The position numbers were made by a program, and so were the translations under genes. The notes beneath the pieces were generated by a model. The model did not search any database and was not told the DNA's origin. It saw nothing but the letters and a program-made list of their open reading frames with translations. Of a stretch of DNA of 64,000 nucleotides, positions 31,036-37,567 are shown piece after piece; the stretch's first letter is position 1; every line of letters begins with the position of its first letter. Source of the stretch: Polyangiaceae bacterium (lineage in GTDB: Bacteria; Myxococcota_A; Polyangia; Polyangiales; Polyangiaceae); assembly GCA_019637295.1 (NCBI GenBank), contig JAHBVX010000003.1, positions 310,001 to 374,000 of the forward strand. The letters run 5' to 3'.

Positions 31036-31752
31036 CTACATCCAGCGGCGGGACTCGCGAATGCGTCGGACCACCAGGCCAGCGACCCGTTCGTCGTACA
31101 GCAGTCCGTTGTGCCCGCAGCCCTGGACCAGGGCGCGCTCACCGTGATGAAAGACCGCCTGCTCGGTCACCATCGTGTCCTCCCGCGCCGCGACCGACAG
31201 GTGGGGTACCCCGCCCGCCGCGCCGTCCCGCAGCCGCGAGAGCACCTCGCTGCCGGGCAGGATGTCTCGCCCGACGGCGCCGGGCATCAACCGCGCGCGT
31301 CGAGTGCCGTTGAAGGGGCTCCCGAGCGAGATGCTCTGCACCACCCGGGGGTCGCCGCCGAGCTCCTGCACGTACCAGCGCGCCACGACGCCGCCCAAGC
31401 TATGCCCGAGCAGGTGGATGCGCACGTCGGCCTCGATCGCGCTGACGAACTGGCCAAGTCGAGTGCCAAGCTCGTGAACCCCCGGCCCTGGCGCGTAGGT
31501 GAACGCTGCCGTCGTCGCCGGAGCGCGCGCCTCGATCAGCTTGCGGATGGGGCGGAGCACGCCGGCGGTCGCGAACAGGCCGTGCAGCACGACCACCACG
31601 TCCTCTCCGGCCAGCACGGCGTCGGGAGCGCGCGCCGTCCAGTCCCTGTGCAGCAGCGTGGCCTGCCGTGCGAAGGCCAAGGCCTCACGGGTGATGACGC
31701 CCAGACCCGGCAAGCGAGCCGGCTGTCGGGGAACGACGTGGTCGTAGGTCAT
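31036..31752 (-). CDS. Alpha/beta hydrolase, triacylglycerol-lipase-like
   Basis: 238 residues. The oxyanion strand VVVLHGLFATAG and nucleophile elbow LLGHSLGGVVARWYV are clear, with a conserved SLGSPFNGT loop typical of lipases of the LipA/PGAP1 type. The catalytic His is probably in GCGHNGLLYDE near the C-terminus. The ATG at 31752 is used; the frame upstream reads through unrelated sequence. No signal peptide, so likely cytoplasmic, although the family can act on lipids at the membrane. Confidence 0.82.
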   Translation of the reverse strand: MTYDHVVPRQPARLPGLGVITREALAFARQATLLHRDWTARAPDAVLAGEDVVVVLHGLFATAGVLRPIRKLIEARAPATTAAFTYAPGPGVHELGTRLGQFVSAIEADVRIHLLGHSLGGVVARWYVQELGGDPRVVQSISLGSPFNGTRRARLMPGAVGRDILPGSEVLSRLRDGAAGGVPHLSVAAREDTMVTEQAVFHHGERALVQGCGHNGLLYDERVAGLVVRRIRESRRWM

Positions 31753-31929
31753 GGCGGGCTTGGCGAATTCTGTAACGCAGCACGCCTGCGAGGGACCAAG
31801 TTTTTGGCCCCCGAGGCGCTGCACAACCCCGTTCGCAGCGCGCCTCCCCCAGCTAGCGCTCGAACTCGCCCGAGCGCGAACGGCGCTTCGCGCCACTTTA
31901 TGTGAGACACCCACCCACCTCCGGGCGTG

Positions 31930-32505
31930 TCAGGCGAGATCGGCGCGCAGACTCTCGAGGGTCGCGCCCGTGAGCGGAGCCTCGGCTCGGTAGGCCGCGT
32001 GATCGATCTCGAGCGCCACCGCCGCAGCCCCGCCGCGCACCCGCGCGGCGAGCTCCGGGCCCAGGTGGAACTTGAAGTAGTGCACGGCCGTCGTGCGATC
32101 GGTGCGCTCTCCGCGCTGCTCCGGCGCCCCCCGCACCCGCTCGCCGTCCACCGACAGAGTCACTCGCTCCTCCATGCCGGCGAGCGCGACCAACATGCGC
32201 TCGCGCTCGTCCTTGTCCGTGTACTCCACGAACAACGTCAGACACAGCTCGTCCTGACCGGGGACCAAGGTGTTGTAGGTGTCAATTTCGTGCTGAACCG
32301 CCGCCGGCGCCGTGATCCGCTCGGTGCGTAGCATCTCCTGGATCTGAAACAGCACCGTGTCGCGGTTCTCGAACACCGCCGTCATGTTCGCGCCGAGCGC
32401 GACCCGCCGCCGCCGCTTCTCTTCCAGGATGCGCGCGCGAAATCGCTCACGGATCTCTTCGTAGGCCCCCAGCGCCAAGAGCTCACTCGCGTCGACCGGT
32501 CTCAT
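31930..32505 (-). CDS. DUF3501 family protein
   Basis: 191 residues, the whole length matching the DUF3501 pattern: start VDASELLALGAYEEIR, then RRRVALGANMTAVFENRDTV, FQIQEML, DTYNTLVPGQDELCLTLFVEY and YFKFHLGPE. The family has no known function but is almost always next to a GlpC-like Fe-S protein and rubrerythrin, as here. Start overlaps the Fe-S gene by 23 bases. No signal or membrane segment. Confidence 0.9.
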   Translation of the reverse strand: MRPVDASELLALGAYEEIRERFRARILEEKRRRRVALGANMTAVFENRDTVLFQIQEMLRTERITAPAAVQHEIDTYNTLVPGQDELCLTLFVEYTDKDERERMLVALAGMEERVTLSVDGERVRGAPEQRGERTDRTTAVHYFKFHLGPELAARVRGGAAAVALEIDHAAYRAEAPLTGATLESLRADLA

Positions 32506-33874
32506 CCTCGGCCTCCTGATGCTCGACCGGCGAGCTCGAGCGCGCGCCCCCGCCGTCGAGTCCGTATGCGCGAGCCAGCGCTACGATGGGGTGCAGCGCG
32601 GCGCGGCGGTTCTGCTCCAAGATGCGCTGCCCCGCTAGGCTACAGTCCGTCACGATCACGTCCGGCGGCTCATCCTCGGGCTCGAGCGCTCTGGCGAGGC
32701 GCTTCGCGTAGCGCACGCCCTCCTCGTAGTACTCGGCCTTCATGCCCCAAGTTCCGTCCACCGCGGAGCAGCGCTCCACGATGCGCACCTCCGTGTCTGG
32801 CAGGGCGGCGAGCAGCCGAGCCCCGGGCGTCGCCACCTTCTGAGCTCGCAGGTGACAGGCCGCGTGATAGGCCACGACGCCGAGGCCGGACTCGAAATCC
32901 TCCTCCAGCTCACCCGCCTTGCGCAGCCCGTCGAGGAACTCCATCAGATCGCGGGTCGCACCGGCGACCTCCTGCGCGTCGGCAGTGCCAAGATACACCG
33001 GCCACTCCTTCTTCATGGTGTAGCCGCAGGTCGGCCCCGGCGTGACCACGAGCGCGCCATCGCGCACGTGCGGCAGCAGGCGGTCCACGTTGCGGCGCAT
33101 CTTCGCTCTGGCCGCGTCCACGTCACCGCCGTCGAGGTTCGGCATGCCGCAGCAGTCGATCTCTTCTGGGGCGATGACCTCGTAGCCGTTGTGTTCGAGC
33201 ACCTGGACCGCCGCCTGCGCCACCTCGGGGAAGTTGTACTCGCCGTAGCAGGTGGCGAAGAGCACGACCTGGCCGCGGACTCCCGCGCCCGGGGCCGGCT
33301 GATGCGCCCGGAACCAACGCGCGAACGGCTTGGCGGCCAGCGGTGGCAGCGGGAAGTCCGCGCTGATGCCGGCGGTGGCCTCCATCGCCCGGCGCGCGAG
33401 CCGACTGGCGTTGACGAAGTTGGTGGGCGCTGCCGCCATGCCCGAGCCCAACCAGCCGATCAGGCGCGGCTCGCCGAGGATGCGGTCCACGAGCGGGACG
33501 CCCTCGCGCCGCGCCCGCTGCGCCTTCTCGCGGGCCATCAGCCGCGGAAAGTCCAACAGTTCCCGCGCGCCCTCGTCGGGCGTGTACGGGCACTTGATGT
33601 AGCAGAGCTTGCACTGCCAGCAGTGGTCGCTGACCTGGCGCACCACGTCCGCGCCCAGCGTCTCGACGCTCTGTGCCCGTCCCGCGTCGACCTCACGGTC
33701 GATGTGGTCGAAGAGGATCGGAAACGAGCCGCAGTACGTCACGCACATGCGGCAGTCGTGGCAGATGTGGAAGGTCCGCTGCAGCTCCGCTTCGAGATCG
33801 CGTGGATCCCAGTAGCGGTCGCGGTTCGGATCGAACTCGGGCTCCGTGACGGGCTCGCGTGCAATGGTGCTCAT
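32483..33874 (-). CDS. Fe-S protein of the GlpC/heterodisulfide-reductase type
   Basis: 463 residues with two 4Fe-4S motifs near the N-terminus (CHDCRMCVTYC and CWQCKLCYIKCP) and CCG-type domains, seen as DCCGMPNLDGG and AYHAACHLRAQK, that bind a further cluster or act in electron transfer. Proteins of this kind move electrons between quinone or soluble donors and acceptors. Placed between DUF3501 and rubrerythrin, it may supply electrons to rubrerythrin. Start ATG at 33874; it ends by overlapping the DUF3501 start. Confidence 0.9.
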   Translation of the reverse strand: MSTIAREPVTEPEFDPNRDRYWDPRDLEAELQRTFHICHDCRMCVTYCGSFPILFDHIDREVDAGRAQSVETLGADVVRQVSDHCWQCKLCYIKCPYTPDEGARELLDFPRLMAREKAQRARREGVPLVDRILGEPRLIGWLGSGMAAAPTNFVNASRLARRAMEATAGISADFPLPPLAAKPFARWFRAHQPAPGAGVRGQVVLFATCYGEYNFPEVAQAAVQVLEHNGYEVIAPEEIDCCGMPNLDGGDVDAARAKMRRNVDRLLPHVRDGALVVTPGPTCGYTMKKEWPVYLGTADAQEVAGATRDLMEFLDGLRKAGELEEDFESGLGVVAYHAACHLRAQKVATPGARLLAALPDTEVRIVERCSAVDGTWGMKAEYYEEGVRYAKRLARALEPEDEPPDVIVTDCSLAGQRILEQNRRAALHPIVALARAYGLDGGGARSSSPVEHQEAEDETGRRE

Positions 33875-33913
33875 GACAGGTCTTCGCGTGCAGTGGCGGC
33901 GTCAATCGAGAGA

Positions 33914-33946
33914 AGGCCACCGGTCGTGGTCGACGACCGGTGGCCT
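33914..33946. terminator. Strong hairpin between rubrerythrin and the Fe-S gene
   Basis: A perfect 14-base stem (aggccaccggtcgt with its complement) and a five-base loop lie downstream of the rubrerythrin stop. There is no U-rich tail, so it is more likely a processing, stabilising or partial-termination structure that lets rubrerythrin be made in excess of the downstream genes. Confidence 0.5.
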
Positions 33947-33972
33947 CGGGGATGGGGTGAGAAGGGTCGCCC

Positions 33973-34392
33973 TCAGCCCAACGTGTCGAGCGCCTTCTGA
34001 AAGCGCCCGGCGTGGCTCTTCTCTGCCTTCGCCAGCGTCTCGAACCACTCGGCGACCTCGTCGAAGCCCTCGTCGCGCGCCGTCTTGGCGAAGCCGGGGT
34101 ACATGGTCTCGTACTCGTAGGTCTCGCCCGCGACGGCCGAAGCGAGGTTGTCCTTGGTGACCCCGATCTTCTTGCCGGTGGCGGGGTCGCCGACCGCTTT
34201 GAGGAAGTCGAGGTGGCCGTGGGCGTGACCCGTCTCGCCGTCCGCCGTGTCCTTGAACAGACCGGCGACCTCCGGGTAGCCCTCGATGTCCGCTGCCTTC
34301 GCGAAGTACAGGTAGCGACGATTGGCCTGCGACTCGCCCGCAAAGGCCTCCTTCAGGTTCTCGTGTGTCTTGGTTCCTTCGAGCTTCGCCAT
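33973..34392 (-). CDS. Rubrerythrin (diiron, without rubredoxin domain)
   Basis: 139 residues of four-helix diiron fold. The iron ligands are recognisable in [19 protein letters not shown] and EKSHAGR. The C-terminal rubredoxin domain of classical rubrerythrin is absent, so an outside electron donor is needed; the adjacent Fe-S protein is the obvious candidate. Rubrerythrin reduces hydrogen peroxide to water. ATG at 34392 has a strong AGGAGG upstream. Confidence 0.93.
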
Positions 34393-34445
34393 CGATTCCT
34401 CCTGTTCGCTCGCGGCCCGCGGGACGCGGCGACGAATGGGCCCAC

Positions 34446-34473
34446 ACCATAGAGACTCCCGGCGTCGGGTCAA
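34446..34473 (-). promoter_or_regulatory. Sigma-70-like promoter of rubrerythrin
   Basis: On the minus strand TTGACC (34473-34468) and TATGGT (34451-34446) are 16 bases apart, giving a start about 45 bases before the rubrerythrin ATG. It lies in the 211-base region shared with oxyR. Confidence 0.5.
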
Positions 34474-34603
34474 CCCCGGGGCGTCACGACAGTTTTCCCA
34501 TGAATTACCAGCCGTTGAAGCCGAGCACTGCGAGCGCCGGCGGGTTCAGTATCCACCGCACCTCGACGCCGCCGCCAATCCGAAGTTCGTATCCCCCCAT
34601 CAG

Positions 34604-35560
34604 ATGGACTTATCGGCTCTGACCCTGACCCAGCTCCGCTACTTGTGCGCGCTCGACCGGGAACGCTCCTTCCGCGCCGCCGCCGAGCACTGCCTCGTCA
34701 CCCAGCCGGCTCTCAGCATGCAGGTACAGCGGGTGGAGCAGCTGCTCGGCCTCGTGGTGTTCGACCGCTCCCGCCAGCCCATCTTGCCCACCGAGCCGGG
34801 CGCCCGCATCCTCGCCCAGGCGCGAACGATCCTGCACGAGGTCGAGCGGCTGCGCGAGATCGCCGAGCACGATGGCGGACACCCCGCGGGCGCGTATCGC
34901 CTCGGGGTCATCCCGACCCTGGCATCCACGCTCTTGCCGCGGCTGTTGCCCACCTTCGCACGGCGGCTGCCCGCCGTGCAGCTCCAGGTGGAGGAGGTCC
35001 CCACCGACGCGCTGCTCGCCGGGCTCGAACGCGACCAGCTCGACGGAGGTCTCGCCGCCACGCCCCTCGAGGCCCCCGGAGTGCGCGAGCAGACCCTCTT
35101 TCGAGAACCGCTCTACGCCTACCTTCCGCCCCGCCATCCGCTGGCCAGCCGCGCGACCGTGCGTCAGTCGGAGCTGGTGGGCGAGGCGCTCTGGCTCATG
35201 GACGAGGGGCACTGCTTCCGCCATCAGGTGCTGCAGCTGTGTCGCATCGACAGCCGCGCCCTGCAGGCTCAGACTCCGGTGCGCTTCCAGAGTGGCAGCT
35301 TCGAGACGCTGATCCGCATGGTCGATCGCGGCTTCGGCGTGACGGTGCTGCCGGCCCTGTCCGTGGCCGAGCTGCCCGCCAGCCGCCGGCGCGAGCAGGT
35401 GCGGCCCTTCGCCGGCGCGGTGCCCGTCAGGCAAGTGAGCCTGATCCGCACCCGCGAGCACCTGAGACGACGGCTGAGCGAAGCGCTCGCGACGGTCGTG
35501 GCGGAGGTGCTCCCGAGCTTCCCTACCTCGTCGAAGGCCTGGGTCGTGCCGCCGCGGTAG
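34604..35560 (+). CDS. oxyR: OxyR, hydrogen peroxide-sensing LysR-type regulator
   Basis: 318 residues: N-terminal winged HTH (TLTQLRYLCALDRERSFRAA, then LVTQPALSMQVQ) and the substrate domain. The redox pair is intact: DEGHCFRHQVLQLC, cysteines 204 and 213, with the same spacing as C199/C208 in E. coli OxyR. This makes a peroxide sensor likely. Start ATG at 34604. It is divergent from the rubrerythrin gene across 211 bases, so it probably controls the rubrerythrin-Fe-S-DUF3501 operon and itself. Confidence 0.92.
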   Translation: MDLSALTLTQLRYLCALDRERSFRAAAEHCLVTQPALSMQVQRVEQLLGLVVFDRSRQPILPTEPGARILAQARTILHEVERLREIAEHDGGHPAGAYRLGVIPTLASTLLPRLLPTFARRLPAVQLQVEEVPTDALLAGLERDQLDGGLAATPLEAPGVREQTLFREPLYAYLPPRHPLASRATVRQSELVGEALWLMDEGHCFRHQVLQLCRIDSRALQAQTPVRFQSGSFETLIRMVDRGFGVTVLPALSVAELPASRRREQVRPFAGAVPVRQVSLIRTREHLRRRLSEALATVVAEVLPSFPTSSKAWVVPPR

Positions 35561-35574
35561 CGACGCCGCGCCGC

Positions 35575-36558
35575 CTACGCCTCCTCGAGCAGCACGCTCA
35601 GCCCCTTGGCGCCGAGGACGGCGTAGTTGCGCACGCAGTTGTTGAACACGACGTGGACTCGCTTCGCCTCGCGCGCCAGCGCTCGAATGCGCGGCACCCA
35701 AGGGCGAAGCTCACCCTCGGTGTAGAGCCAGTCGAACCGCTCATGGACGCTCGCCCCTCGCTTGCCGAAGCCCGCCACGTTGTGACCGTGGAAGCGCACG
35801 ACGGCGAGGAGGGAGCACGTCACCCACGCGTCGCTCGGCACGCCGGCGTGCTCCGTGACGGGCTCGTCCACCACGACGTACGACATCTCGTTGTCGCCGA
35901 GCAGCGTCGTCAGACGCTCGCGTCGGTCCGGTGCGAGCCAGCTTGGGTGACGAAACTCGACGGCGAAGGGCAGCGACGGGTGCCGCTCTCGAACCGCGGC
36001 GATGCGTCGCGCGTTGCCTCGTGTCGCCGCGAACCAGGGCGGATACTGCAGGAACACGGCGCCCAGCTTGCCCGCTGCGCTCAGGGGCTCGAGGGCGGCG
36101 ACGAAGCGCTCCTCGATCTCCCGGGCGACGCCGCTCGGCAGCGCGTCCGGGTACACGCGCCCGGCAGGCAACGCCGCGCGCAGGTCCAGAGGCAGCCGCG
36201 CCACCTCGATGGGATGACCGGTGAGCACCGGGTGCGCCTTGACGTCGAACGTGAAGTCCTCGGGCGTGTGCTCGGCCCAGGCCCCGGTCGTGTCTCGCCC
36301 CACGAGGGTGTAGTAGGTGGCGTCCACCTCCACGAGCCTGAAGTGCTCGGCATAGAACCGCAGCCGCTCGGCGGCGCGCAGCGACTTCTTGGGATAGAAG
36401 GCGCCGCTCGAGAGCAGCGTCTTGTCCGTCCAACCCGCGGTACCGAAGCTCACGTTGCCCTGCATCGCGGGCAGCGGGGCGCGCGCGGCCAGCGCCTCCG
36501 CGTCCCGCGCACGCTCCGGATCCGGTTCCGGGAGTCTGGGGACAGACGCGCGCTTCAC
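35575..36558 (-). CDS. DUF72 family protein (second copy)
   Basis: 327 residues with the DUF72 TIM-barrel pattern: VSFGTAGWTDKTLLSSGAFYPKKS near the start, a middle segment LGAVFLQYPPWF, and AVEFRHPSWL, then VFNNCVRNYAV near the end. The family's biochemical role is unknown. GTG at 36558 was chosen because GAGG lies seven bases upstream; a TTG at 36600 would overlap the preceding gene. Follows its paralogue directly. Confidence 0.8.
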   Translation of the reverse strand: MKRASVPRLPEPDPERARDAEALAARAPLPAMQGNVSFGTAGWTDKTLLSSGAFYPKKSLRAAERLRFYAEHFRLVEVDATYYTLVGRDTTGAWAEHTPEDFTFDVKAHPVLTGHPIEVARLPLDLRAALPAGRVYPDALPSGVAREIEERFVAALEPLSAAGKLGAVFLQYPPWFAATRGNARRIAAVRERHPSLPFAVEFRHPSWLAPDRRERLTTLLGDNEMSYVVVDEPVTEHAGVPSDAWVTCSLLAVVRFHGHNVAGFGKRGASVHERFDWLYTEGELRPWVPRIRALAREAKRVHVVFNNCVRNYAVLGAKGLSVLLEEA

Positions 36559-36580
36559 GGCAGCGCCTCGACCATGCGGG

Positions 36581-37567
36581 TCAGTGCGGGTAGTCGTCAA
36601 GCCCGTCCGGCGGCGGGTCGCTAGCCTCCCGCACCCAGCGTTCGGCCAGCGCCCGCACCGTGAGCGGGCTCGAGCCCTCGGCCTTGTTGTTGACGATCAC
36701 GAGCAGCACCTTGCCCAGCAGCTCGCAGGCGCGGGCGAGGCGCATCACGTCCGCGCGCATGTCCTCACGCGGGTCGACGATGCGATCGAACGGCGCGAGC
36801 CGCCGCTTGCGCGCCTCGTAGCGCTGCCCAGGCGGGATGAGCAGTCGCGCCACGACGACGTCGCCCAGCAGCGCGCCCGGCACGTCGAGCTGCTCCGCGA
36901 GGGTCGGCATCCGCTCCCAGTAAGAGAACACGTGGCCCGCCCCTGCCGACTGCAGCGCCTGTACATAGCGATGGGTGAGCAGCTCGCGGTTGCGCAGCTC
37001 GACGGCGTAGGAGAGCTCCGGAGGCAGCCTGCCCAGGAACGCGGCGAGCCGCTCGGCGAAGGCGCTGGGCTCCGGCAGCTCGCCCGGGCGAAGCGGCATC
37101 AACTCGAACACGACCTTGCCGCTGTGCTCCGAGAAGTGCTCGAGCACGGGCTCGAGGACTTCCTTCGCGCAGCGTTCGGCGTCCAAGAAGTGGGGATTGG
37201 GATCGCGGGTCCGCGGGTGCACGGCGCTCGTGATGCCCGCAAACGCCTTCATCACCCAGCGAAACCCGGCTGGCAGCTGCGCTCGATAGCGGGCGAGGGT
37301 CGCCGCGTCGAGGGGCGCGTAGTAGCTGCGGTCGATGCCCACGCCGCGAAACAGCGGATGACGCGCGTACTCCTCGAGTCCGCGCTCGGCCAGCTCGCGC
37401 TCGCTGGGGCGGCCCTCGTAAACCAGACCCGCCCAACCGGGGAAGGTCCAGCTCGAGGTGCCGAAGCACAGCCACGCGGGCACGTGCCGCATCAGCTCGC
37501 GGTCGGCGGCATGCGCGTCCTTGGCCGCCGGCGGATCGAACAGTCCGAGCTGTCGGCCCGCGGTCAT
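36581..37567 (-). CDS. DUF72 family protein (first copy)
   Basis: 328 residues, paralogue of the following gene. Motifs: FGTSSWTFPGWAGLVYEG, VVFELMPLRPGE and YAVELRNREL, and LLVIVNNKAEG near the C-terminus. Start ATG at 37567, three bases after the upstream phosphotransferase stop. Tandem DUF72 genes are uncommon; the two differ widely outside the core motifs. Confidence 0.87.
   Translation of the reverse strand: MTAGRQLGLFDPPAAKDAHAADRELMRHVPAWLCFGTSSWTFPGWAGLVYEGRPSERELAERGLEEYARHPLFRGVGIDRSYYAPLDAATLARYRAQLPAGFRWVMKAFAGITSAVHPRTRDPNPHFLDAERCAKEVLEPVLEHFSEHSGKVVFELMPLRPGELPEPSAFAERLAAFLGRLPPELSYAVELRNRELLTHRYVQALQSAGAGHVFSYWERMPTLAEQLDVPGALLGDVVVARLLIPPGQRYEARKRRLAPFDRIVDPREDMRADVMRLARACELLGKVLLVIVNNKAEGSSPLTVRALAERWVREASDPPPDGLDDYPH

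Follow-up and report, generated by a model that had tools for sequence, protein, structure and literature searches.

An oxyR gene divergent from a rubrerythrin, Fe-S protein and DUF3501 gene cluster in a Polyangiaceae bacterium

The window analysed here is a stretch of 64,000 nucleotides from a Polyangiaceae bacterium (contig JAHBVX010000003.1, positions 310,001 to 374,000). Four genes fill positions 31930–35560 of the window. The oxyR gene on the forward strand is divergent from three genes on the reverse strand (34392–31930), which encode a rubrerythrin (rbr), the Fe-S protein RFO and a DUF3501 protein, and which are called the triad below. From the sequences, we consider it somewhat probable that the triad is an OxyR-controlled peroxide-reductase operon, in which RFO would re-reduce the rubrerythrin and DUF3501 would serve for docking. 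The window holds a fresh member of an already described module, with an uncommon adjoining regulator. The points added here concern the position beside OxyR, which ahpC/ahpF also hold, PerR-type regulators as an alternative, the lack of a rubredoxin match and the cysteine set of RFO.

The proposed mechanism is as follows. Oxidized OxyR would activate rbr-RFO-DUF3501 through the divergent promoter. At its diiron centre, the rubredoxin-less rubrerythrin would reduce hydrogen peroxide to water, a reaction shown in relatives. RFO, which is similar to HdrB, LutA and EtfD and has no evident membrane part, would re-reduce the diiron centre in the stead of rubredoxin, in line with a proposal of 2016. 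Speculatively, DUF3501 would be a non-redox partner, most likely one that docks the rubrerythrin, plus RFO where it is present. The operon appears to occupy the slot next to OxyR that is held by ahpC/ahpF in a sister lineage. Because the slot is the same, the rbr operon would work like AhpC and its dedicated reductase AhpF, with other proteins.

Gene arrangement

All four genes are found at the positions of the initial annotation, and the Pfam and NCBIfam profiles agree with the families named there; the four-gene arrangement is confirmed. The oxyR gene encodes a LysR-type regulator, identified by profile and structure matches, at 34604–35560 of the forward strand. A longer open reading frame starts at 34322, and this start was replaced by 34604 as the most likely one. 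On the reverse strand, rbr is located at 33973–34392, RFO at 32483–33874 and DUF3501 at 31930–32505, with an overlap of 23 bases between the 3' end of RFO and DUF3501. According to these coordinates, the oxyR/rbr intergenic region (34393–34603) is 211 bp long.

The gene order was surveyed in three sets with some genomes in common: the phylum Myxococcota (98 stretches), a second collection (80) and an order resembling Acidobacteriota (17). In the phylum sample, DUF3501 is present in 94 of 282 genomes. The analysis covered 93 of them, all but G248, whose DUF3501 is a fragment at the edge of a contig. Burkholderia megaplasmid hits, which bear no annotation, were left aside. The same-strand order rbr-RFO-DUF3501 recurs in 82/98 phylum stretches (window included), 68/80 stretches of the second collection and 17/17 of the Acidobacteriota-like order. 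This recurrence indicates that the gene grouping is more than chance.

OxyR and its neighbours

The best of the 50 NCBIfam models matched by the regulator is OxyR, with 192.8 bits, below the curated cut-off of 329; the Francisella OxyR model scores 162.8 and CynR 140.6. The best solved relatives are OxyR proteins. Cys204 (codon 35213–35215) and Cys213 (codon 35240–35242) form a GHC-x8-C motif, and both are kept in all five genomes with a triad-linked OxyR. The divergent gene had been annotated as an OxyR with both cysteines, and the motif and the best NCBIfam model, though below its cut-off, bear this out. The genome of the window has a single strong OxyR match; the next one scores 57.5 bits.

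A search for OxyR across these 282 genomes gave matches at E up to 1e-40 in 63. Neighbours were surveyed at 30 loci of 68 places, with about 1.5 kb on each side and less at some loci. The neighbour is rbr at five of the 30, ahpC/ahpF or a different peroxiredoxin at 11 and katG at seven; none of these was seen at the other seven. Ten neighbouring proteins were scanned against NCBIfam, and the rest were assigned by phmmer. Four AhpC and one AhpF exceed the cut-offs. Truncated at the locus ends, three AhpF fragments and a KatG fragment score below them. The neighbour at locus L257 is a peroxiredoxin of a different type.

In the OxyR tree, the window's protein falls within a ten-member clade (support 100/100). 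Five of the members are beside the triad and five beside ahpF or ahpC-ahpF (ahpF alone was seen at locus L256). The rbr-linked group needs one change (94/88 support, 96% of bootstrap trees). The other four rbr-linked OxyRs share 61–63% identity with that of the window, and the linkage is kept in two genera. No DUF3501 match was found in the five ahp-linked genomes of the clade (G051, G120, G144, G254 and G199). G056, which is in the same family, carries the triad together with a lipase-like gene and no OxyR alongside. This layout would fit a placement of oxyR before a pre-existing triad, with the polarity not proven.

The oxyR-ahpCF loci have the same OxyR clade and the same position, with a peroxide reductase and a dedicated reductase adjoining. 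They differ in the enzymes: a thiol peroxidase and a flavoprotein are encoded there, whereas a diiron protein, an Fe-S protein and DUF3501 are encoded here. The triad in the slot held by ahpC/ahpF in the sister lineage is an independent argument for a peroxide reductase that comes with a donor of its own.

Rubrerythrin

The rbr gene encodes an aerobic-type rubrerythrin of 139 residues, which matches PF02915 with 113.6 bits. It contains no cysteine and therefore lacks a rubredoxin domain, as noted initially. In the alignment of 156 rubrerythrins, that of the window included, CxxC is found in none, and E20, E53, H56, E90, E93, E124 and H127 are kept at 99–100%. From the rubrerythrin literature, we take these seven residues to be the diiron ligands. 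The nearest solved structures are the rubredoxin-less 9onm, 4di0 and sulerythrin (E 5e-64 to 7e-57). By pairwise score, the protein groups with 4di0 (5.6e-64) and sulerythrin (7e-57) rather than with the classical rubrerythrin 1b71 (2.2e-25).

Genome-wide searches gave one match each to rubrerythrin and RFO in the genome of the window, which is 98.5% complete. No match was found there to the catalase family PF00199 or to rubredoxin PF00301. As no rubredoxin is matched, a different donor is likely to be needed.

In vitro, ferriperoxin of Hydrogenobacter thermophilus uses NADPH and FNR to reduce both H2O2 and organic peroxides. The organism requires the ferriperoxin gene for aerobic growth; low concentrations of paraquat and H2O2 kill or inhibit the fpx disruptant (PMC3317640). 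According to PMC12851003, sulerythrin is very slow to react with O2 and, by earlier work that this paper cites, reacts rapidly with H2O2. Both are single-domain rubrerythrins reported to reduce peroxide, like that expected here. Ferriperoxin differs in that it was assayed with NADPH and FNR, and neither RFO nor DUF3501 is mentioned in the available part of that paper (PMC3317640). The peroxide-reductase role proposed initially is consistent with the sulerythrin/ferriperoxin family, the full diiron ligand set and the OxyR clade in common with ahpC/ahpF-linked OxyRs, and is probably correct.

The Fe-S protein RFO

RFO matches both the CCG domain PF02754 and the 4Fe-4S dicluster domain PF13534 above the cut-offs. 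The best NCBIfam model is GlpC (216 bits; cut-off 278), and a second GlpC model scores 134 against 279.9. RFO is below both curated cut-offs and was not assigned as GlpC.

After the 20 rows shorter than 380 residues were left out of the 155, 15 cysteines are invariant in the 135 near-full-length rows (C38 in 134), together with His341. Eight of the cysteines form two ferredoxin-type sets. The others are Cys209, Cys241, Cys242 and Cys283 in the first CCG domain (CCG1), and Cys340, Cys369 and Cys411 in the second (CCG2). The protein had been described as a two-cluster CCG Fe-S protein. The family assignment holds, whereas the number of clusters may be undercounted: with the 4+3 invariant CCG cysteines counted, RFO possibly has more than two cluster sites.

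The fold of RFO was predicted with a pLDDT (predicted local distance difference test) of 92.6. It matches LutA with Z 24.7 over 224 residues, the LutA structure being itself an integrative model, EtfD of M. smegmatis with Z 22.5 over 362 residues at 3.8 Å, and HdrB with Z about 19. The three proteins are thus alike in fold (Z 19 to 25), and EtfD also has the two ferredoxin-type cysteine sets. HdrB has five cysteines in each CCG domain, whereas RFO has four and three invariant ones; in this RFO does not match an HdrB-type subunit. In EtfD, four cysteines bind a linear [3Fe-4S] cluster, five cysteines and a histidine bind a noncubane cluster, and a membrane part is present (PMC13083937). In RFO, no membrane-helix-like hydrophobic stretch was detected (best 19-residue mean 0.97), and the 4+3 cysteines differ from the four-cysteine and five-cysteine/histidine ligand sets; RFO does not match EtfD in these features either. 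The CCG set of RFO fits neither HdrB nor EtfD.

DUF3501

The DUF3501 protein matches PF12007 with 218.8 bits. Its predicted structure (pLDDT 96) matches PDB entry 3fjv with Z 24.7 over 189 residues. The entry has the same fold, was released in 2009 and bears a title stating unknown function. All other matches have Z of 6.6 or less; no fold relative with a known function was found among them, which proves nothing either way. In the literature searched, no tested function of DUF3501 was found.

The alignment of DUF3501 contains no conserved Cys or His, and assignment as a redox or metal protein was rejected. Residues conserved at 95% or more include R19, K30, R33, R34, F45, E46, Q54, E57, R60, E62, E73, Y77 and N78, and the conserved residues are mainly located in the helices 12–32, 48–61 and 67–78 and in the strand 41–46. 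Because Cys and His are not conserved, a direct redox role is unlikely, and our best guess is that DUF3501 would be a docking or coupling partner.

DUF3501 stands alone in 9/98 phylum stretches, several of which are ended by contig edges. Among the ten neighbouring proteins scanned, no recurring partner of these stand-alone copies was found. At locus L124 (6017–7465, reverse strand), a divergent second copy of DUF3501 is located beside an AhpC/TSA-type peroxiredoxin. A periplasmic-binding-protein gene, which resembles part of a heme or iron ABC transporter, also adjoins it.

Distribution of the adjoining regulators

OxyR is beside the triad in 5/93 phylum genomes, which belong to two genera of the window's family. 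In the second collection it is found in three stretches, all of them Myxococcota records, and in 0/77 of the others; in the Acidobacteriota-like order it is found in 0/17. The OxyR linkage of the triad is rare.

Regulators were counted in the stretches containing rbr (86, 73 and 17 in the three sets), with Fur-family genes counted directly upstream of rbr or after DUF3501. A Fur-family gene flanks the triad in 20/86, 44/73 and 11/17 stretches, and OxyR in five, three and none. The two were never found together at one triad across the three sets. Six of the Fur proteins were scanned, and the best matches are PerR models, all under the cut-offs. Across 68 aligned Fur rows, the presumed PerR metal-ligand positions hold H (67 rows), D (65), H (68), H (67) and D (68); some genomes are represented twice, and seven downstream Fur genes, counted only over a wider range, were left out. 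The last D of this set is presumably a PerR marker. The initial annotation had proposed a survey of DUF3501 with OxyR. The two genes do occur together, in the five genomes above, and the commoner adjoining regulator is a PerR-type Fur protein. At locus L054 (4285–5269, forward strand), for example, a PerR-type Fur gene is directly upstream of rbr on the same strand, a layout that recurs in many loci.

Relation to the published module

An OxyR gene in this context has one precedent, in Sideroxydans lithotrophicus, which we take to be a betaproteobacterium. In that organism OxyR is clustered with DUF3501, an Fe-S protein and a rubrerythrin (ISME J, 2020; PMC7852563). It is a single case given with no phylogenetic context, whereas the present one belongs to a Myxococcota lineage.

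The aerobic-type rubrerythrin without rubredoxin is mostly next to DUF3501, and several are also next to the COG0247 Fe-S protein RFO; Cardenas, Quatrini and Holmes (2016) put RFO forward as a possible substitute for the missing rubredoxin-like domain (PMC5114695). The mechanism in the initial annotation is therefore essentially a published hypothesis. The trio has also been reported in mitochondria of some protists (PMC7050145) and in Acidihalobacter (PMC7760498). Since the literature already has the triad, the proposal of RFO as donor and one case of OxyR linkage (PMC5114695, PMC7852563), the description as a novel module was abandoned.

The window has the same three genes as the module of 2016: the rubrerythrin has no rubredoxin-like domain and groups with sulerythrin and 4di0, and DUF3501 and a COG0247-type Fe-S protein are adjacent. 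The difference lies in the regulators. The text of PMC5114695 contains none of the terms regulator, PerR, Fur family, transcription, LysR and OxyR, whereas a divergent OxyR is found here and, among relatives, a PerR-type gene can take its place. In the open-access literature, a PerR regulator is not mentioned in PMC7760498, PMC7465337, PMC7050145 or PMC7852563; we do not claim that the PerR linkage is unreported.

The study of 2016 did not settle how electrons reach rubredoxin-less rubrerythrins in aerobes (PMC5114695). The comparative evidence makes the published donor hypothesis easier to test, and the survey provides named genomes, some having RFO and others not, that allow a direct test of the donor question.

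Intergenic DNA

A sigma-70-like candidate promoter of rbr, TTGACC-16-TATGGT, is located at 34446–34473 on the reverse strand. It is the only one found in 31850–35650, against a shuffle mean of 0.1.

Three relatives, which belong to a single genus, have a perfect dyad, TAAGC-N3-GCTTA, between oxyR and rbr; it is absent from the window and from G244. The dyad GATAAGCNNNGCTTA occurs exactly once per genome in G276 and G071, between oxyR and rbr, and is absent from the other three genomes searched.

The intergenic regions were also compared with each other. GATTGG is found in 7/9 regions, that of the window included (34575–34580, reverse strand); G144 has GAATGG, and G051 has neither. This 6-mer is present in 5/7 lineages, a spread reached in 5/300 shuffles. 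The 8-mer TCGATTGG is present in 4/7 lineages, at rbr- and ahp-linked loci alike, and 0/300 shuffles reach this spread. Both were chosen post hoc, and G071 was left out of the shuffle test as a near copy of G276. In the window, TCGATTGG is absent and only GATTGG is found, a weak candidate for an OxyR half-site. Because the region contains neither TCGATTGG nor the dyad, we infer the OxyR control of rbr from the layout and the phylogeny.

Evaluation of the proposed function

Several observations weigh against an OxyR-controlled operon with RFO as the donor. Neither the OxyR four-half-site consensus nor the dyad of the relatives is above shuffles in the intergenic region of the window. Neither regulator adjoins the triad in 61/86, 26/73 and 6/17 stretches, although some of these loci are truncated at contig ends and three have a Fur-family gene at a greater distance. 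The genome of the window also encodes one copy of KatG. Outside the OxyR clade, G073 and G168 combine an ahp-linked OxyR with a triad at another place in the genome, so the two are not mutually exclusive in general. Nine stretches contain rubrerythrin and DUF3501 with no adjacent RFO. In four of these genomes no RFO match was found genome-wide (G046 and G085, which are 98–99% complete, and G485 and G486, the completeness of which is not known). In two (G484 and G488) the matches are only weak, and in three (G174, G068 and G487) a strong match is present elsewhere. RFO is thus a usual, not an obligatory, partner of rubrerythrin and DUF3501. Lastly, ferriperoxin is active with NADPH and FNR (PMC3317640). 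Of the initial proposal of a self-contained reductase with the Fe-S protein as donor, the conserved RFO partner and the missing rubredoxin match remain in favour; the donor idea is not general, since RFO is matchless in 4/9 genomes and ferriperoxin works with FNR.

The last two points fit a different reading, in which the peroxidase is under OxyR and receives electrons from general ferredoxin/FNR, and RFO serves a quinone- or flavoprotein-linked side reaction or the repair of the diiron site. The resemblance of RFO to EtfD, which connects a flavoprotein to menaquinone (PMC13083937), points in the same direction. RFO, however, is adjacent in 167/195 stretches of the three overlapping sets, placed like AhpF beside AhpC, and lacks the membrane-helix-like stretch. 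We regard this reading as tentative and rather improbable. A stronger form of the operon with RFO as the donor appears similarly doubtful: the triad would be a plug-in equivalent of AhpCF, in which the regulator has been swapped (PerR-type elsewhere, OxyR here) and OxyR has swapped its enzyme, RFO would be AhpF-like through CCG clusters with 4+3 cysteines, and DUF3501 would be an obligatory non-redox coupling factor even where RFO is absent.

The OxyR adjacency could also be incidental, with OxyR controlling itself and katG elsewhere and with rbr constitutive. The linkage is found in only 5/93 phylum genomes, the syntenic block also holds two DUF72 genes and a lipase-like gene, and the window has no clear OxyR site. 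On the other hand, the divergent oxyR/rbr layout is typical of LysR regulators, and the linkage is kept in two genera despite the OxyR identity of 61–63%. The perfect dyad in the oxyR/rbr interval of three congeneric relatives, and TCGATTGG in common with ahp-linked relatives, also argue for control by OxyR. An incidental adjacency is unlikely.

Iron or oxygen handling by the triad, in which case the PerR/OxyR neighbours would be a sign of iron set free by oxidative stress, is still less probable: rubrerythrins are members of the ferritin-like superfamily (PMC5114695), ferroxidase activity is reported for some of them (PMC3317640) and PerR-type Fur genes are neighbours, but sulerythrin is slow with O2 and fast with H2O2 (PMC12851003), the fpx disruptant is sensitive to low paraquat and H2O2 (PMC3317640), and the OxyR position is common to ahpC/ahpF and katG genes.

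Neighbouring genes

At locus L058 (4455–5995), rubrerythrin and DUF3501 with no adjacent RFO are located beside a convergent truncated haemoglobin gene (Bac_globin).

In the window, 31036–31914 of the reverse strand encodes a lipase-like alpha/beta-hydrolase (Palm_thioest/DUF676 matches), and its longest open reading frame starts 15 bases past the DUF3501 stop. Homologues are near the triad in 5/5 OxyR-linked genomes and in G056. On the other side, 35575–37567 (reverse strand) contains two DUF72 genes in tandem, which are convergent with oxyR; an APH-family gene comes next. All three genes have homologues near the triad in 5/5 OxyR-linked genomes.

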